Source: a virus
DNA: 49,897 nt
Direction: 5' to 3' (one strand)
IMG/VR virus record: IMGVR_UViG_3300006128_000018
Span: 1 to 49,897 of that record
The notes under the pieces were generated by a model. That model worked only from the letters and a program-made list of their open reading frames with translations, searched no databases and had not been told where the DNA came from. Position numbers and translations under genes: made by a program. Shown here piece after piece: positions 4,876 to 49,072 of this stretch. Position 1 is the first letter of the stretch, and every line of letters begins with the position of its first letter.

Positions 4876-7381
4876 AAAAATCCTCCAATGTAGATAGCTT
4901 TTCTGGTGACCATCCGATAACTTCTAATATACTTCCGAGAGGATCTAGAAAAGATTTAATGAATTGTGTATCATAATCGATATATTTATCCAACGCAAAT
5001 TCTTTTGGAAGCACACTAGGCACAGCAATAATGTTTTCCTTGATAGGATTTGGCGTTTTCATATAACAAAACTTAACTTTTTCACCTTCTTGAATAAGAG
5101 GATATTTGTGTGTTAAGTTGTGGCTCTTTAATAGATGATTATATATTAAAGCACCACGAACATGAATAGGTGTGCCCTTTTTATAGATGTCGGTTTTATT
5201 TCCGTATTCAGAAAGACCACGACATCCCCGAGGAAAAGATATATCTTCAAAAGCCAAAGTCTTAAAATCTTGTTTAAAATTCTGAATAAACGCTTGAAGA
5301 GTCTCTTCATCAGTTTCCATGATCAATTTTAGAGCTTTTTTGATATTTTCTCGACAACTAGATGGTGTTGATGACTTTACGGCTTCAATTCCCATCATTT
5401 TTAGCTTAGGTTCTGTATATCGAATGCCTTCGTTATCATAAACATTCAAAATATAGCGCTTTTTTGCTGTCCAAATGCCTTTATTTGCAATACTTTCGCG
5501 CTTCATCTTCATAAAATTGATATAGGCATTAGTATGTTGAGCCAAATCATCAAAACACGAGTCGATATAGGGTTCAATCTTATTTTCACAGATTTTATCG
5601 ACAACTCCTACTAGTTTTTCAATATTTTCTTGCTTATAAGCATCAGGAATTAGATGTGATACAAGCGGTCCAAGATTCAAATAGTTAGAATCAGTATCTA
5701 CTGCAATGATATAATCAGCATTTTTAGTCTTAATAGTTTTATTCAAGTATTCATTTAAATTGCCTTCAATCCATCTGATCACAAATTGACCAGTAAGAGT
5801 AATAGCTTCAGCGAATTCAATTGAAAAGTAGCGAAAGTATTGATTGCCTAAAGCACCGTATAGACTATTAAGAAGAATTTTACGCGCCATTTGCATATTA
5901 TTGTATCGAGCAATATCATTGAATAGTTGTTTAGTCTTATTCGTTTGATATTCTTTCTGAGCTTCAAGCATTTTAGTCTTAAAAAGCTTACGCTCTATCA
6001 TCATTTTTTCAACAAGAGCAGGCATTACACCTTTTTTATCTTTATTCCATAGACAACTGTTTGCTGTTATGGCTACATTTTGATTTTTAAGTATATTTTG
6101 AATTTCATCATCACCAAAAGCACCATTAAGAAGCTGATCAATTGAAAAATCATATTTTATTTTACCAGAATACGTTTCTGGAGAAATATTATATTGCACA
6201 ATCAAAGAGGGATACAGAGAATTAATATCAAAAGACACCACCCAATTATGTAGACCAATTAATGGATCTTTGACATAAGCACCTGCAAATTGCATACTTT
6301 TTTCAGTATTTTTCTTTGGTGGAACAACAATTTTTTGTTCTAATAGATAGTTATGAATAATAACTTCCCATGTCTTAACTGGACTAAAGACATCATCAAA
6401 AGTAATCTTAGCATCATAAGCAATAGTTAATGCCTGATCAATAAAATTTAGCTTTTTATCCAATCTATCTACTAGATTAACATCTTTAATATTATATTCG
6501 ATGAATTTTTGAAAATCTTTTTTATAAAGATCAAATAGATTATCATAGTCTGAATAATCTGTTTTACCTTCACCAATCTCAATAGAACAAATATGATCTA
6601 GCTTATAAGATTCTTGATTTGTATATGTATATTTCTTATAAAGTTGTAAATAATCTAGAATGCATATGCCACGAATGTTATATGTCTGTTGTTCTTTGCC
6701 ATTATTCTTTACTTTACCTTCATGAATCATACCCCAAGGAGATAGCATTTTAGCCCTCTCTTCACCTAGGATTCGCATGATTCGATTGATCAGATATGGA
6801 ATATCAAAAAATTCAACATTCCATCCGGAGATAACGTCTAGATTTAATGCTCTCCATGCATCAATAAATTTTTCTAATAAAACTTTTTCATCTCGACATT
6901 TAATATATTGAATATTTGAATCATTATTAATAAATTCACCACAACCAAATGTAAAAATCTTATCAGAAACTTTTAATGAGATAGCAGTAATTGCCTTATC
7001 TGCTTTTTCAATATTTGGAAATCCTGAATCAGATTCGACTTCAATATCAATTAGCCCAACATTAATTAAATCTCGATCATAAATGATTTCACCCGACCAC
7101 ATATCATTAATATAAGCATATAAGAATGAATCCAGACCATGAATTTCCATGCCGGATACATCTTTATAAGATTTTAGAAATTCTTTTGCTTCATTAATAT
7201 TGCTAAAAGCAATCTTATCCGCCGGCTTTCCTGCAAGAGTCATATATTCGGCAGATGGCTTTTTAGATTGAACAAATAGATATGGAGAATATTCTACTTT
7301 ATACTTAACGTTTTTATTGTTTTCAATTCCACGAACAAAAATATGATTGCCAAGCTGAAATACATTTTTATAAAAATTCAT
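4868..7381 (-). CDS. 43: Family B DNA polymerase (T4 gp43)
   Basis: 837 residues, slightly shorter than T4 gp43. It is the replicative polymerase with a 3'-5' proofreading domain. Exo I DIEVE lies near 112, Exo II SGWNVEFFDIPYL near 190 and Exo III YNIKDVNLVDRL near 290. Motif A FDINSLYPS is near 380, motif B KILLNSLYGALGNQ near 500, and motif C VDTDS near 585 with the two catalytic aspartates. The C-terminus probably ends in a clamp-binding tail (LEDFFG). It is the only polymerase in the window and appears full-length. A TATAAT-like box on the minus strand at 7409-7414, without a good -35, may drive it. The hsp20 terminator precedes it. Confidence 0.97.
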   Translation of the reverse strand: MNFYKNVFQLGNHIFVRGIENNKNVKYKVEYSPYLFVQSKKPSAEYMTLAGKPADKIAFSNINEAKEFLKSYKDVSGMEIHGLDSFLYAYINDMWSGEIIYDRDLINVGLIDIEVESDSGFPNIEKADKAITAISLKVSDKIFTFGCGEFINNDSNIQYIKCRDEKVLLEKFIDAWRALNLDVISGWNVEFFDIPYLINRIMRILGEERAKMLSPWGMIHEGKVKNNGKEQQTYNIRGICILDYLQLYKKYTYTNQESYKLDHICSIEIGEGKTDYSDYDNLFDLYKKDFQKFIEYNIKDVNLVDRLDKKLNFIDQALTIAYDAKITFDDVFSPVKTWEVIIHNYLLEQKIVVPPKKNTEKSMQFAGAYVKDPLIGLHNWVVSFDINSLYPSLIVQYNISPETYSGKIKYDFSIDQLLNGAFGDDEIQNILKNQNVAITANSCLWNKDKKGVMPALVEKMMIERKLFKTKMLEAQKEYQTNKTKQLFNDIARYNNMQMARKILLNSLYGALGNQYFRYFSIEFAEAITLTGQFVIRWIEGNLNEYLNKTIKTKNADYIIAVDTDSNYLNLGPLVSHLIPDAYKQENIEKLVGVVDKICENKIEPYIDSCFDDLAQHTNAYINFMKMKRESIANKGIWTAKKRYILNVYDNEGIRYTEPKLKMMGIEAVKSSTPSSCRENIKKALKLIMETDEETLQAFIQNFKQDFKTLAFEDISFPRGCRGLSEYGNKTDIYKKGTPIHVRGALIYNHLLKSHNLTHKYPLIQEGEKVKFCYMKTPNPIKENIIAVPSVLPKEFALDKYIDYDTQFIKSFLDPLGSILEVIGWSPEKLSTLEDFFG

Positions 7382-27824: not shown

Positions 27825-28445
27825 ATGATGCAATTTTTTACAGAGTTTTTAATTGAAGAAGAAAATTCTCTCCATGCATTTGATATGGATGAGACGCTTT
27901 TTTCTCATGATCCAACTAAATTACAAATTCATGTAAATGATGCTCAAGGAAATAGAGTTCAATCTTTAACAAATCAAGAATTCAATAGTTATAAACTTCC
28001 TACAAATCATAGTTATGATTTTTCTGATTTTGAATCTTCTTCTAAATTATATCAAACGGCAAAACCTATTCGTAAAATGATAGCTAAAATGAAAGCTATA
28101 CATAATAAAGGTGGTAAAACTGAAATCGTAACGGCTAGATCAGATTTTGATGATCAGCCAAAATTTAAAGAATTTATGAATAAATATGGTGTAGATATTA
28201 ATAAAATTCATGTTCGCAGAGCTGGAAATCTTCAAGGTCGAGCTCCAGAAAATAAGAAACGGGTTATTTCTAATCTTATTAAACAATATGGATATAAAAT
28301 AGTGCATTTATATGATGATTCAAAAGAAAATCTTTCACATTTCTTGTTATTAAAACAAGATCATCCTAATGTCAATTTTCATGCTCATCACGTAAATCAT
28401 AACGAGCACACTGGAAATACAACCATAACTACAACGAGGGTATAA
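27825..28445 (+). CDS. HAD-superfamily phosphatase-like protein
   Basis: 206 residues (ATGATG start; the second Met is equally likely). Motif I is AFDMDETLF (nucleophile Asp and general acid Asp near 19-21). EIVTAR is motif II, the conserved Lys follows in a PENKKRVI segment, and LYDDSKENL is motif IV with the metal-binding acids. The C-terminus is His- and Asn-rich. It could act on 5'/3' phosphates, nucleotides or sugars. Similar small HAD proteins occur in T4-like phages. The late box just upstream suggests late expression. Confidence 0.8.
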
Positions 28446-28993: not shown

Positions 28994-29545
28994 ATGATTT
29001 ACGTTAACCTCCCATCAGTAGTTCCTTCAGTTACATTTAAGACTCGAGTGCATGATGAAAGCATTGATGGTCCAAACCCATATCGTTGGGAAGACAAGAC
29101 CAGCTTTGATTACTTCGGTGGCAAGCGAGTTATTCTATTCGCACTGCCAGGAGCATTTACACCTACTTGCTCTGCTTACCAACTACCCGGTTTTGAGAGT
29201 ATGCATTTTGATTTTGGCAAGTACGGCATTGACGAAATTTATTGTTTGTCAGTAAATGATGCCTTCGTTATGAATGCATGGGCTAAGTCACAAAATATTG
29301 AACGTGTAAAGATGATTCCGGATGGCTCTGGACATTTTACTGAAGGTATGAACATGCTGGTCGATAAGGATAACCTTGGCTTTGGTGTGCGGTCTTGGCG
29401 CTATGCTGCTATAATTAATAACGGCAAGATTGAGAAGTGGTTCATTGAGCCTAATCGTGGTGACAATGTTACCAGCGATCCCTATAGTGTATCATCACCC
29501 GAGAGCGTTATGGAGTGGCTAAAGCATGGAACTGATGCTGCATAG
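28994..29545 (+). CDS. Peroxiredoxin (Prx5/AhpC-TSA type)
   Basis: 183 residues. The peroxidatic Cys is in LPGAFTPTCSAYQLPGF (C59), the conserved P-x-x-x-T-x-x-C motif. VILFALPG and a GFGVRSWRYAAII segment fit the Prx5 group, and no resolving Cys is obvious, so it probably acts as a 1-Cys enzyme with glutaredoxin or another thiol. It reduces peroxides. Codon choice is richer in C- and G-ending codons than neighbouring genes, which points to acquisition from a host. It lies between two tRNA genes, a common site for added genes. Confidence 0.9.
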   Translation: MIYVNLPSVVPSVTFKTRVHDESIDGPNPYRWEDKTSFDYFGGKRVILFALPGAFTPTCSAYQLPGFESMHFDFGKYGIDEIYCLSVNDAFVMNAWAKSQNIERVKMIPDGSGHFTEGMNMLVDKDNLGFGVRSWRYAAIINNGKIEKWFIEPNRGDNVTSDPYSVSSPESVMEWLKHGTDAA

Positions 29546-32177: not shown

Positions 32178-32269
32178 GGGCGGGCATCTGGTGGTGGCAA
32201 GGGTCTTATAATCCCTTTGGTCGGCAGATAACCGATTTGCTGAGAGTTCGATCCTCTCCCTGCCTACCA
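32178..32269 (+). tRNA. Atypical tRNA-like gene (class II shape, possible anticodon TAT)
   Basis: Acceptor GGGCGGG pairs with CCTGCCT (two G-T) and is followed by ACCA. The T-arm GAGAG/CTCTC with TTCGATC is intact. The anticodon arm AGGGT/TCCCT has loop CTTATAA, giving anticodon TAT. A 25-base variable region holds a second stem (TCGG/CCGA), as in Leu and Ser tRNAs. The D-arm (12 bases) is too short. An alternative folding puts anticodon GAT in that second hairpin with an abnormal position 33. Identity uncertain; it may be a pseudo-tRNA. Confidence 0.5.
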
Positions 32270-32293
32270 ATCTTCAAATATGAAGGAGAAATA

Positions 32294-32545
32294 ATGTATA
32301 AAATTTACACGAAAACAAATTGCACATATTGTACCGCAGCAAAAAATATGTTAAATGCTAAAGGTATTCCATTTGTTGAATTTAATATTGAAAATAATGA
32401 ACATTATAAAGAAACACTATTGACAGAAGTACCACACGCAAAAACAGTACCTCAAATTTTTGAAAATGATCAATATATCGGTGGATATCTTGAACTAGTT
32501 GAAAGAATGAAGCATTATGACACTTCCAACATGCTATATGAATGA
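32294..32545 (+). CDS. Glutaredoxin
   Basis: 83 residues from the ATG at 32,294 with AAGGAG upstream. YTKTNCTYCTAAKNML carries the dithiol CTYC active site (near 10-13). KTVPQIFENDQYIGGYLELVE contains the cis-Pro VPQIF and the GG loop, as in glutaredoxins. In T4 the homologue supports ribonucleotide reductase. Here it may also reduce the phage peroxiredoxin. The end overlaps the next gene. Confidence 0.93.
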   Translation: MYKIYTKTNCTYCTAAKNMLNAKGIPFVEFNIENNEHYKETLLTEVPHAKTVPQIFENDQYIGGYLELVERMKHYDTSNMLYE

Positions 32546-41313: not shown

Positions 41314-41321
41314 TATAAATA
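41314..41321 (+). promoter_or_regulatory. T4-type late promoter for the virion-type cluster
   Basis: TATAAATA immediately after the preceding stop and 34 bases before the ATG at 41,355. The genes from 41,355 to at least 49,072 follow without another visible promoter. Confidence 0.7.
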
Positions 41322-41354: not shown

Positions 41355-42503
41355 ATGCTTAAATTTATTTCATATATTGTTGAAGCTTCTGATGTTGGTG
41401 GTATTCAACATATTGAGCATCCATCAGATCGTACCTTTGATGGTTCAGATGCAGCTCATCATGCAATAAACACACTTAAGGGTGCAGCTGAAGGTTCTAC
41501 TCCAATTACTCGCAAGATTGATGATAAGATGTCTTATCAAACTATGCGTGATGAGAATGGTAAAGTTGGAGTAAAATATAAAGGTGCAGGTTCACACTAT
41601 AATTTTAGTCCAGAAGATATTGATAAACAACATGGCCATAAACCATATCTTGCTCATCCTCTAAAACTTCTTCTAGAGCATCTTCCAAAAATACTTCCTA
41701 AAAGAGAAGGTGAATGGCAAGGTGGATATATGAGTGATCCATCGACCAGAACAATTTCTGGAGGAAGAATAAGTCATACACCAAATACAATTGAATATTC
41801 TGTACCAACTGATACTGAAGAAGGTAAAAAGCTTCAAAGATCTAAAGTTAGTACAGTTATTCATTCAGAACTTACAGGTCCGAATCGGGAAGCACATCCG
41901 GTTACGGACCTTTCTGAATTTAGACAGCATCCTGATGTTCATCAGGTTAGTCATTTAGTATCTCATGATGAACAACATAGTATCGATCCAGTGATGAAAC
42001 GTCAAGCTATGACTCATTTGAATCAGGCACAAAAACTTTTACAAAATCATACGCATGATCATCATGCTGGTCATGAACAAACTCTACGTCAATATATAAA
42101 TTCTACAGTATCTTCTGGTGAAACTCCATCAACAGAAGGATATAAACAAAAATTAACAGAAATTCATAATAAAAAAATTGATGCAGTAAAAACAAAAAAA
42201 ACAAAAGATACTAAAACTGCTGAAAAAGATGCTACTTTAGCTCATGTAGATAAACACAAAAAGGTTTTTGATAAATCTTTTAAGATTCATGGCCATGTTC
42301 AAGAAGCTACCAATTTACTTTCTAGAGCTTTAGCCAAAACTGCCCATGGTGGATATGGTCATGCTATTAATGGAGAAGAAACGGGCCCAGAAGGATTTGT
42401 GGCGGGTGGTTTAAAGATTGTAGATCGCAAAGGATTTTCAGCGGCAAATAGGGCCCGATCAGCTGTGCTTAGAGCATCAAAAACATTAGGAGCTAAAGTC
42501 TAA
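41355..42503 (+). CDS. DNA-ligase/nucleotidyltransferase-fold-like protein (DUF6267-type)
   Basis: 382 residues. QHIEHPSDRTFDGSDAAHHAINTL leads to TRKIDDKMSYQT (52-63), equivalent to the nucleotide-binding K-x-D-G motif but with Asp in place of Gly, and VGVKYKG (71-77). A GRISHTPNTIEYSVPTD block follows near 147-163. This order matches large uncharacterised phage proteins that look like ATP-dependent ligase relatives. The C-terminal half is a Lys-rich helical, coiled-coil region (IDAVKTKKTKDTKTAEKDA). Lys54 would be the adenylated residue if active. It begins a late operon with a nuclease-nucleotidyltransferase fusion. Function uncertain. Confidence 0.6.
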   Translation: MLKFISYIVEASDVGGIQHIEHPSDRTFDGSDAAHHAINTLKGAAEGSTPITRKIDDKMSYQTMRDENGKVGVKYKGAGSHYNFSPEDIDKQHGHKPYLAHPLKLLLEHLPKILPKREGEWQGGYMSDPSTRTISGGRISHTPNTIEYSVPTDTEEGKKLQRSKVSTVIHSELTGPNREAHPVTDLSEFRQHPDVHQVSHLVSHDEQHSIDPVMKRQAMTHLNQAQKLLQNHTHDHHAGHEQTLRQYINSTVSSGETPSTEGYKQKLTEIHNKKIDAVKTKKTKDTKTAEKDATLAHVDKHKKVFDKSFKIHGHVQEATNLLSRALAKTAHGGYGHAINGEETGPEGFVAGGLKIVDRKGFSAANRARSAVLRASKTLGAKV

Positions 42504-45453: not shown

Positions 45454-46241
45454 TGAATGAAAAAGAACAGAAACTTCTTGATAGTTGGTCTAAACTACTG
45501 GGCAATCCTGAAGTTTCTGAGTCAACACTAAAAAAAATTGAAATTGATGTAGCTAAAAAAGAACGTGAAAAACGTATACTAGAAAGTTTTGAAAATACTC
45601 TTTTAGGTATCAAACCAATCAAAGATGTTAAAATAGAACCTATTACAATAGTTGAAGAAGAAATTATTGATGAATCTTTTGTAAATGCTAGAAATGATAC
45701 GACTAGGCAAATAACACAGTCCGTAAATACTCCTATTGAAAAACAGCCTCAACTTCCAGATGATTTTGTTAATAAATCTGTACAAGCAATATCAAAAGCT
45801 GTAAATAAAATTCCTCAAGATACATTACCAAAGTCAGAAGAAATACCTTCTGCTATGCGTAAAGAAATGGATCTTTTAAAAAAATCTGTTTTGGATTTAC
45901 ACCAATTTGCTTCACGCATTTCACAAATGGGTGGAGGTGGAGCCGGTTCTGTAGATGAATTATATTTTAGAACAATTAGTGTTACAGGAAATTATACAGG
46001 CACTAATAAAGATTATTATATTGGAGTAAATTCATCTATACCTTGTACTATAACTTTACCTAAGGGTAATAAATCAGGTAGACAAGTTATTATAAAAGAT
46101 GAAAGCGGAGCTTGCGCTACAAACAATATTACAATAATTACACAAGGTACTGATACAATAGATAATAATACATCTGCTATCATGGCCATAAATAATATGT
46201 CACTTACATTTATATATCGAAATGGTTGGAGAATTATATAA
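45453..46241 (+). CDS. Virion-structural-type protein with C-terminal beta domain
   Basis: 262 residues. The N-terminal 150 are charged helix and linker. The C-terminal domain (about 165-262) reads SVTGNYTGTNKDYYIGVNSSIPCTITLPKGN, RQVIIKDESGACATNNITII and NMSLTFIYRNGWRII. That beta-sandwich pattern appears at the ends of many phage fibre and baseplate-associated proteins and in cyanophage virion proteins. Start and stop overlap neighbours (TAATG at both ends). Probably a fibre or capsid-decorating protein. Confidence 0.65.
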   Translation: MNEKEQKLLDSWSKLLGNPEVSESTLKKIEIDVAKKEREKRILESFENTLLGIKPIKDVKIEPITIVEEEIIDESFVNARNDTTRQITQSVNTPIEKQPQLPDDFVNKSVQAISKAVNKIPQDTLPKSEEIPSAMRKEMDLLKKSVLDLHQFASRISQMGGGGAGSVDELYFRTISVTGNYTGTNKDYYIGVNSSIPCTITLPKGNKSGRQVIIKDESGACATNNITIITQGTDTIDNNTSAIMAINNMSLTFIYRNGWRII

Positions 46242-47773
46242 TGGCATATACTTTTAGTACTTTTAGTAATGTTAGCTTTATATATAATAGTAATGGCACA
46301 CCATTTTCAAATAGTACCGCATTACCTGTTTATGTTAATAATGCAATAACTATATCAGGAAATATTGCTGGTATAACTTCCAATGTTTATATACAACCTA
46401 CATCTACAGCTAATTTGGCTATCAATAATTTACCAGCAACTCAAAACGTACAAGTTCTTTCAAATACAACAAATTATGTTTATACTCAATTTGCACCTAC
46501 ATGGTCTCTAGATGCACTTAACAAAGTAAGAACCTCAGCTACATTAAATCAAGATTGGTTTGTTCCTGTAGTTGATGATGATACATCATTTAGATGGTCA
46601 CAAGCAACTTCAGGAACAGGATCAGGTAGTCAATTCATTGCCAACACAAATGAAATTCAAATCACTAGTGGAACTTCTGCTTCAGGTTATGTATACAGAC
46701 AAACTTATTCCAGATTTAAGATCATTCCTGGAACATCACACACTGTATATACTACAGTAAACTGGGAAGCTAATACAACTACTGAATCTGGTGTAACTAG
46801 AAGAACTGGTATATTTGATCAAAACAATGGAATCTTTTGGGAACAGGGTGGTGTATCAGCTAATACATTAGCTGTAGTTGTTAGAAGAACACAGGCTAAT
46901 GGTAATATTACCGAAGATAGAATATATGCTAATAATTTTAATACAGATAAATTAGATGGAACTGGTCCGTCAGGATTTAATATTTTTTCTTCTGGATTTA
47001 CAAAATATTATACTTTTTGGTTTGATTTTATTGGAGGTAGAACAGGTCGTATACGTTTTGGTATGGGTACATCTATTGGTCCTCAAATTTGTCACGTACA
47101 GAGTTACACAGGTGCTATTAATTCAACTGTTCCTTTTATAGCTGATAATAGCTTACCTCTACGTCGTGAAATATTCAACGGATCTTCAGGATCATTTACA
47201 ACTACTGCGCCAACATATAATATGTCAGGTATTTCTTTTCAGGCAGAAGCACCTTCAGCATTCAATCCTTCGCCAACAACTGGTTACAATGCTAACGGAT
47301 ACGTACCCAGCACAACAACATTGACTCCAATTATGTCTATTGGATTAAGATCAGGCGCTCCATTTAATGGGTCTGATATTTCTCCTGGGGAATTTAACCT
47401 TGTTGATATTAACAATCAGGGCAAAAACGCAACTGCTGCTACCTTCTTATACACAGTAGTATATAATGCCAACGTAAATGGAGCAGCTATATACTCAAAC
47501 ACTTCAGCTAGCGTTAATGCAAATACTGGTAGATCATCTCAAATATGGGCTTGGCCAAATACGGCAACAGTAACAAATGGAATAACTTTATTGTCGGGCA
47601 TCACCCAATCAGGTGGTACAAGTGTTGCTTTTGACGGATTACCACAAACTTATAATATTGGCTCTGATATTAACGGGTATCCTGCTACACTTACCTTATG
47701 TCTAAAACAATTAGCTGCTGGTGGTTCGACAGCAAACGTAGTCGCATCTTGGAACTTTGTTGAGCAATTATAA
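46241..47773 (+). CDS. Putative tail-fibre or virion structural protein
   Basis: 510 residues from the ATG at 46,241 (TAATG overlap, GGAG upstream). Rich in Ser, Thr, Asn and Gly with repeated beta-strand patterns, as in fibre or adhesin proteins. FKIIPGTSHTVYTTVNWEAN and YYTFWFDFIGGRTGRIRFGMGTS fall in a region resembling a lectin-like or capsid-decoration domain found in phage structural proteins. It is GC-richer than neighbours in parts. It is a candidate receptor-binding protein. Confidence 0.6.
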   Translation: MAYTFSTFSNVSFIYNSNGTPFSNSTALPVYVNNAITISGNIAGITSNVYIQPTSTANLAINNLPATQNVQVLSNTTNYVYTQFAPTWSLDALNKVRTSATLNQDWFVPVVDDDTSFRWSQATSGTGSGSQFIANTNEIQITSGTSASGYVYRQTYSRFKIIPGTSHTVYTTVNWEANTTTESGVTRRTGIFDQNNGIFWEQGGVSANTLAVVVRRTQANGNITEDRIYANNFNTDKLDGTGPSGFNIFSSGFTKYYTFWFDFIGGRTGRIRFGMGTSIGPQICHVQSYTGAINSTVPFIADNSLPLRREIFNGSSGSFTTTAPTYNMSGISFQAEAPSAFNPSPTTGYNANGYVPSTTTLTPIMSIGLRSGAPFNGSDISPGEFNLVDINNQGKNATAATFLYTVVYNANVNGAAIYSNTSASVNANTGRSSQIWAWPNTATVTNGITLLSGITQSGGTSVAFDGLPQTYNIGSDINGYPATLTLCLKQLAAGGSTANVVASWNFVEQL

Positions 47774-48645
47774 TGAAAAATTTTACGTCTTTTGTTGAAG
47801 AAAAAGTAAAACTAGTTCAAGAGCATTTGCGTTATAGTAAAACAGATCTTGAACCTATTATGAGCAAAGAAACTTTAGATTATCATTTTGATGGATTAGC
47901 ATCAAAATATGTTGAACGTTATAATACAGGTGAAGGTGATCCTGATTTTAATTTTGGTGGAGCTATTTTACACAATTTATATTTTGCACAGTTTTGTGAA
48001 CCAAATAAATCTAATTTTACAGGAACTGCTAAAGCTAAAATAGAAGATAAATTTGGTTCTCTTAGTAAAATGCAAGATGCTATTGAAGAACAAGCTATGA
48101 AGATTCAAGGTTCAGGCTGGATTTATCTTAATGATAATTGTGAAATTAACATTATTCATAATCATGAATATCATTCAAATATGAAAATAATGTTACTTAT
48201 TGATTGGTGGGAACATGCTTGGGCTTTAGATTATCAGGCTAATAAAAAAGAATATTTAAAAAATATCTATAAAATAATAGATTGGTCAATAATAAGTTCT
48301 AGATTTATTTCTGTATTAAAAGAAGATGCTCCTCCACAAAATATTTTAAAAAATCCAAGTATGATGCATAATAATAAACTTGAAGCATATGCTGCTGCTA
48401 AAAAAATGGCATCTCAACAAGCAAATCCAAATGATAGAGCTTATATTTTAACTTATAAATATTATAAACATTCAAATACTAAACAATTTATTGTTGTATA
48501 TAATAGAAGTTTATTAAGCCAAGCACCAAATTGGCAAGAACTTGGATATAAAATAATCGGATGGGTCTCACAAAATGATGGTTCGGTTATTCTTACACCT
48601 AGTGGAAAATATATAAAAGGAGATCCTAATGAGCAAAATGACTGA
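47773..48645 (+). CDS. Fe/Mn superoxide-dismutase-like protein with C-terminal extension
   Basis: 290 residues, longer than a plain SOD (about 195). LRYSKTDLEPIMSKETLDYH, then GAILHNLYFAQF, GSGWIYL and IDWWEHAWALDYQANKKEYL reproduce all four metal ligands: H38, H67, D144 and H148. The second-shell His of the first helix is Leu here. Residues about 180-290 have no SOD homology and include an Asn/Gln/Lys-rich stretch and a beta-like tail. It converts superoxide to peroxide if active. Its place in a late operon with virion-type genes suggests it could be packaged (inference). Confidence 0.85.
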   Translation: MKNFTSFVEEKVKLVQEHLRYSKTDLEPIMSKETLDYHFDGLASKYVERYNTGEGDPDFNFGGAILHNLYFAQFCEPNKSNFTGTAKAKIEDKFGSLSKMQDAIEEQAMKIQGSGWIYLNDNCEINIIHNHEYHSNMKIMLLIDWWEHAWALDYQANKKEYLKNIYKIIDWSIISSRFISVLKEDAPPQNILKNPSMMHNNKLEAYAAAKKMASQQANPNDRAYILTYKYYKHSNTKQFIVVYNRSLLSQAPNWQELGYKIIGWVSQNDGSVILTPSGKYIKGDPNEQND

Positions 48646-49072
48646 TGCATTAAAAGTAGTATTAGCTGATACATTTGCATTTTATTTAAAAATTCATAAT
48701 TATCATTGGAATGTCACTGGTCCAGATTTTTATGAATATCATATTTTCTTTGAAAAACTTTATACTGAAGTTTTTGAAGCGGTTGATTCAGTAGCCGAGC
48801 ATATTAGATCTTTAGATGAATATGCACCAGGTTCATTAAGTAGATTTTCTGAATTGACAACTATAGCTGATGCCAAGACTGTCCCAGAAGGATTAAATAT
48901 GGCTAAACAGCTATTAAATGATAATGCAAAGGTCATTGAATCTTTGAAAAATGCTTATCTTATTGCAGAAGAAATGCAAGAAATTGGAGTTAGTAATTTC
49001 TTACAAGATAGAACAGATATTCATAAGAAACATGCATGGATGCTTAGAGCAACTATCAAAGACAGAATTTAA
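48629..49072 (+). CDS. Dps-like ferritin-family protein
   Basis: 147 residues; AAAGGAGATC precedes the ATG inside the previous gene. FYLKIHNYHWNVTGPDFYEYHIFFEKLYTEVFEAVDSVAEHIRSL is the Dps/ferritin helix pair with the H-x-x-H-W and E-x-x-D-x-x-A-E metal residues, followed by helical segments to the end. Dps proteins bind DNA nonspecifically or oxidise iron with peroxide. Together with the SOD-like protein it forms a peroxide and iron protective pair. Confidence 0.88.
   Translation: MSKMTDALKVVLADTFAFYLKIHNYHWNVTGPDFYEYHIFFEKLYTEVFEAVDSVAEHIRSLDEYAPGSLSRFSELTTIADAKTVPEGLNMAKQLLNDNAKVIESLKNAYLIAEEMQEIGVSNFLQDRTDIHKKHAWMLRATIKDRI

Follow-up and report, generated by a model that had tools for sequence, protein, structure and literature searches.

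Why should a T4-like phage carry a superoxide dismutase (SOD) with an added C-terminal domain, overlapping a Dps gene, in an operon of virion-type genes? The window analysed here, a stretch of 49,897 nucleotides from the IMG/VR virus record IMGVR_UViG_3300006128_000018, contains genes of the gp41, UvsX, gp43, gp46 and UvsW type and represents part of the genome of a T4-like phage. A sequence-only reading had proposed, from the extension and position of the enzyme, that it might be packaged in or attached to virions. The packaging idea draws support from a different part of the protein, the capsid-targeting-like N-terminal pre-sequence of phage SODs, and not from the extension. We consider it reasonably probable that the window SOD is a pro-enzyme targeted to the capsid, packaged along with a second head protein, processed by cleavage in the prohead and then injected. 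The relevant features are the following (related stretches are given by L numbers; a slash within a sequence marks a putative cut).

41,314–41,321, plus strand: TATAAATA, a late promoter box of the T4 type, 41 nt ahead of the operon's first gene
41,355–42,503, plus strand: DUF6267 protein, first gene of the late operon (PF19782, 1.6e-41), N-terminus MLKFISYIVE/A
46,226–47,773, plus strand: virion structural protein directly upstream of the SOD gene (phrog_1645, head and packaging, 4.8e-35), its stop overlapping the SOD start
47,773–48,645, plus strand: Fe/Mn SOD-like pro-protein, 290 aa, 33.7 kDa, stop included, assigned by Pfam, PDB, fold and selection
47,773–47,802, plus strand: capsid-targeting-like pre-sequence MKNFTSFVEE, residues 1–10, with predicted removal by a T4-type prohead protease
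47,827–48,324, plus strand: SOD core, residues 19–184, from the alignment of 80 phage SODs with E. coli SodA and SodB
48,316–48,327, plus strand: junction with a second protease-like site, L182-K-E184/D185; LKE or IKE is kept in the window, L002 and L176
48,325–48,642, plus strand: C-terminal extension, residues 185–290, 12 kDa, pI 9.3, whose homologue in L084 is a free-standing gene of 112 aa
48,629–49,072, plus strand: Dps, a ferritin-like mini-ferritin, with its start codon in the last bases of the SOD gene and a GGAGA ribosome-binding-type stretch before it

The product of the open reading frame at 47,773–48,645 (290 open codons) can be assigned by homology to the Fe/Mn SOD family, with a C-terminal extension; dismutase activity is predicted. 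The protein matches Sod_Fe_C (E 5.5e-21) and Sod_Fe_N (E 1.2e-6) in Pfam, the top matches in a PDB sequence search are bacterial SODs (E ~6e-19), and Foldseek on the AlphaFold model, in which the SOD core has a pLDDT of ~90, returns Fe/Mn SODs throughout the top 50 (E ~1e-12). The four metal ligands that had been pointed out in the window protein (H38, H67, D144 and H148) proved invariant in an alignment of 80 phage SODs, all of which also keep Y34, W128, W169 and E170. Compared with L002, dN/dS is 0.19 for the SOD core, 0.43 for the extension and 0.15 for Dps; all three are therefore real genes under constraint, that is, under purifying selection. With the known Fe/Mn SODs (SodFM; PF00081 plus PF02777) the window protein shares the fold, the four ligands, Y34, E170 and the QGSGW motif, whereas the phage branch adds an N-terminal protease-type pre-sequence and the window lineage a C-terminal fusion.

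The phage branch also departs from these enzymes inside the core. H30 is replaced by L and Y174 by A (E. coli SodA numbering) in 80/80 phage SODs, leaving none with the His30/Tyr174 gateway pair at the dimer interface, and across the branch Y173 is replaced by W and the alpha-hairpin is shortened. The H30 and Y174 replacements and the short hairpin are what one might expect if the SOD fold now served metal binding or some other purpose without catalysing dismutation, say as a head protein with a structural or metal-delivery role. We regard such a role as improbable: invariant ligands together with Y34, E170, W128 and W169 are hard to explain without metal chemistry, and H30 or Y174 mutants of other SODs retain partial activity. 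The gateway pair is typical of Fe/Mn SODs but is neither needed for metal binding nor defining. A conserved N130–H131 pair probably provides the second-sphere counterpart of SodA Gln146, as judged from a manual alignment.

Phage SODs begin 10–17 residues before cellular SODs, and the distance from the nearest ATG to the first His ligand has a median of 42–43 in the phage proteins versus 28 in the cellular ones. Residues 1–10 of the window SOD are modelled with very low confidence (pLDDT 34). Internal proteins of T4 are packed by means of a ten-residue capsid-targeting sequence (CTS), which gp21 cuts (PMC9026906; PMC5694885); mapping has connected its positions 4 and 7 with targeting and 8 and 10 with cleavage (PMC9026906). 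At these four positions MKNFTSFVEE of the window has the same residue or residue class (F4, F7, V8, E10) as MKTYQEFIAE, the N-terminus of IPII and IPIII in the T4 record, where gp22 starts with MLKEQLIAE and gp24 with MAKINELLRE. The SOD of L044 starts similarly, with MKNFSHFIEE. The window SOD has the N-terminal ten-residue pattern in common with T4 IPI–IPIII and Alt, as well as a late-operon position, and a gp21-family protease is found in related phages. Two details count against packaging: L002 (MKNFGSFTEQ) and L176 (MKNFGTFTEQ) have T at position 8 in place of I, L or V, and the P1' residue (K or E in the window, D for the junction) differs from the A or S of T4.

We found the pattern [ILVF]xE in the added N-terminal stretch of 28 of 32 non-redundant phage SODs (19/20, plus 9/12 in a second query set), compared with 121/659 (18%) other phage genes and 53/421 (13%) cellular genes (p ~4e-16 and 3e-19, respectively; second set alone, p 4e-5), P-values that overstate independence because the sequences share ancestry. 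The motif is short and was spotted after inspecting sequences; the rule was then fixed and tried on the second set, which came from a new query, yet belongs to the same family as the first. The pre-sequences are very diverse and their ending is kept, as in MRDLITLVE/S, MALHFIKYLHE/D, MAYNFIKYVTLAE/S and MNDSIKKYISIAE/A. A strict IPIII-type pattern occurs in 0/20 SOD representatives, a set that does not include the window SOD. Short motifs of this type may be called suggestive only. Three of the ~60 window genes have the motif (SOD and the genes at 41,355 and 27,825), and the DUF6267 proteins of the late operon likewise have targeting-like N-termini (MLKFISYIVE in the window, MKNYLSFIVE in L085). 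As for the protease, a gp21-type enzyme is encoded in 9 of the 12 larger SOD-bearing records examined, and aligned gp23 proteins from SOD-bearing phages keep the cut site, LxE followed by A, S or T, at the expected place. The window, a 50-kb fragment, yielded no head genes such as gp23 or the gp21-type protease.

The SOD of Pseudomonas phage MIJ3 (L178, PA5oct group) starts with MNDSIKKYISIAE/A, a cut motif nearly that of T4, FIAE/A. MIJ3 encodes a gp21-type protease. Four proteins have been identified in MIJ3 virions, from major bands alone, and SOD is not among them (PMC6892783).

Relatives of the SOD occur in at least 590 IMG/VR stretches; among the matches listed, almost all phage SODs are ~180–200 aa long and lack the extension. 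Their common neighbours are IscU (NifU_N), IscA (Fe-S_biosyn, HesB), UvdE, thioredoxin and ribonucleotide reductase. Many phage SODs lie in metabolic cassettes and not in head operons, which counts against packaging. The closest SODs of named phages are those of the PA5oct group, within a ClpX/ClpS/IbpB/FtsH cassette, and of Vibrio phage 2.275.O. The window SOD might instead be an ordinary auxiliary metabolic gene, its product acting in the cytoplasm late in infection and sparing oxygen-sensitive enzymes and DNA until lysis, with the pre-sequence as a harmless leader or structural tail. The company of IscU, IscA/HesB, UvdE, thioredoxin or ribonucleotide reductase in most related phages and of ClpX, ClpS, IbpB and FtsH in the PA5oct group speaks for such a gene, and the Fe-S assembly genes of T4-like phages have already been so interpreted (PMC5332604). 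We see this account as possible but doubtful, since it does not explain why a protease-like motif is kept at the N-terminus at ~50% identity while metabolic neighbours mostly lack it (adjoining IscU, thioredoxin and NrdA genes are without the motif), nor why the free extension protein of L084, described below, has a similar start.

A recurrent cassette, UvdE – SOD – IscU – IscA – giant structural protein, is present in many IMG/VR phages among L009–L080 (e.g. L030, 5,953–7,023) and links phage SOD to Fe-S cluster assembly. In L095 (5,001–5,348) a phage-type SOD lies beside SufB-like and QueD-like genes (by eye); the contig is binned as Methylophilaceae and is probably a phage contig in a MAG.

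The extension of about 100 residues is borne out as well (residues 185–290, dN/dS as above). It could not be identified as a known domain: apart from one meaningless sub-threshold Pfam match, there was no match in Pfam, PDB or phage records, and AlphaFold models it poorly (pLDDT 46). The telling relative is L084, in which the extension domain (HMM match, E 1.6e-29, plus alignment) is a gene of its own, coding for 112 aa, directly before Dps and without SOD. The L084 protein has a targeting-like start, MKKFIKFIKE, whose IKE matches the LKE or IKE of the junction. That the domain exists there as a separate protein with a targeting-like N-terminus makes the extension of the window SOD look like a second protein fused behind the enzyme. 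With a pI of 5.3 the free protein is acidic, which T4 internal proteins are not, and this counts against packaging. Upstream in L084 is MNEKEQKLL, a short remnant of a 45453-type gene; therefore SOD loss by deletion in L084 and SOD gain by fusion elsewhere are both possible. Among the IMG/VR matches listed, the fused form is found only in the window, L001, L002 and L176, every time between a phrog_1645-type gene and Dps. Another conceivable role of the extension is to anchor the SOD to the virion exterior or to a component of the tail or baseplate, in keeping with the place of the gene among structural genes and with purifying selection on the extension. This seems very unlikely, given that L084 has the extension beside Dps without any SOD, that the extension matches no structural family and that SODs without it are the rule among the matches listed.

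L074 (2,103–3,119) encodes a 338-aa SOD with a different C-terminal domain, SGNH-type hydrolase-like by eye and without a Pfam match; therefore SOD fusions arose more than once.

The claimed placement of the gene, in a late operon with virion-type genes, holds: its upstream neighbour is the phrog_1645 protein, and the TATAAATA box at 41,314 precedes the DUF6267 gene at 41,355, the first of an operon that also encodes a cytidyltransferase-like protein and virion proteins. The number of boxes was rejected as evidence, as TATAAATA is not commoner in the window than expected (12 versus 13.7 by chance); placement alone is informative. Six of the 12 copies lie 15–65 nt upstream of a correctly oriented start, compared with 5% for permuted 8-mers. 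L084 has the same box upstream of the homologous gene.

We infer packaging, cleavage, injection, SOD activity and purpose along the following lines. The SOD would be made late as a pro-form, whose ten N-terminal residues would draw it into the assembling prohead core, as for T4 internal proteins. Cleavage behind residue 9 or 10 by a prohead protease of the T4 type (gp21 family) would leave free SOD in the head, and a further cut after E184 (SVLKE184/DAPP) would likely free the extension, so that the reading frame would encode a small polyprotein of two head proteins. Both would be stored with the DNA and injected with it on infection. From the first minutes onward, superoxide would be removed by the injected SOD, to the benefit of the incoming genome and of those phage and host enzymes that are sensitive to oxygen. 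Dps, a resident late gene, may bind iron and protect DNA, either ahead of packaging or after it. Such a cargo route is plausible because foreign proteins fused to the CTS of T4 enter the head and from there the cell (PMC9026906). The known T4 internal proteins inhibit Type IV restriction (PMC12373910), whereas the cargo here is a predicted redox enzyme and its packaging is itself predicted. A likeness to the predicted packaging exists in giant viruses of protists, where virion-borne SOD is viewed as an early redox defence; the megavirus enzyme, however, is a Cu,Zn SOD of a eukaryote virus, and fold and packaging route are unrelated (review, PMC9405923).

For T4-like and related jumbo phages as a large branch, we lean slightly towards SOD being packaged in the head via a CTS and injected with the genome, in the window lineage after synthesis as one polyprotein together with another head protein. 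So far, phage SODs have been catalogued as auxiliary metabolic genes with a role in the infected cell. To our knowledge, no capsid-targeted phage SOD has been reported; a phrase search on SODs encoded by phages turned up no paper, which, with the limited literature covered, is a weak sign of novelty. If SOD is injected, phages bring an anti-superoxide enzyme with their DNA and redox defence begins at DNA entry, raising the question of a host oxidative burst against incoming phage versus virion protection in sunlit water. The puzzling extension would be explained as a fused second head protein. A CTS-like start together with gp21 could serve as a simple sequence rule in the search for enzymes that uncultured T4-like phages inject.

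The reading frame at 48,629–49,072 (147 open codons) overlaps that of SOD by 17 nt, as had been described. By fold family (Pfam Ferritin, 2.9e-25; phrog_3636, 5.9e-34) and ferroxidase residues, its product can be taken as a genuine Dps; H26, H38, D53 and E57, spaced as in E. coli Dps, do not vary among 12 phage Dps proteins. The notion of a dedicated SOD–Dps pair was overstated. In many related phages (L084, L085 and L087–L094) the late operon has Dps without an adjoining SOD, and, among the matches listed, most phage SODs have no adjoining Dps, so we rejected the pair as a general one. L085 and L087–L094 have Dps in the late operon with neither SOD nor extension, and no SOD was found anywhere in the records of L085, L087 and L088, which may be fragments. 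Dps therefore appears to have held this locus longer, and SOD with its extension is a lineage-specific arrangement; Dps pairing and extension are lineage traits and not general to phage SODs. The Dps N-terminus has no targeting-like start. The window protein shares the Dps fold and ferroxidase residues with other phage Dps proteins (Privateer QIN94861, ~29% identity; Kuravirus-type; S-SRM01, 40%), and the Privateer relative was detected in purified virions by mass spectrometry (PMC7881722), a finding that also speaks for packaging in the present case. By analogy, Dps could possibly enter heads through DNA binding. Within the L085–L094 phage group the late structural operon consistently includes Dps, whether SOD is there or not. 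In L176 a GIY-YIG-like (by eye) endonuclease gene (5,575–6,264) directly follows Dps and breaks the gene order of the window.

SOD and Dps had further been counted, with peroxiredoxin and glutaredoxin, as a full superoxide-peroxide-iron defence set. The additional genes are real (peroxiredoxin at 28,994, Redoxin 3.5e-22; glutaredoxin at 32,237–32,545 with a TTG start, Pfam 1.2e-15), but they lie in a gene cluster other than the SOD/Dps operon, and the supposed set amounts to a tally of genes from separate clusters. Elsewhere in the window, the gene at 27,825–28,445 encodes a HAD-type acid phosphatase-like protein, whose second Met opens a capsid-targeting-like start; its product is a candidate injected phosphatase.
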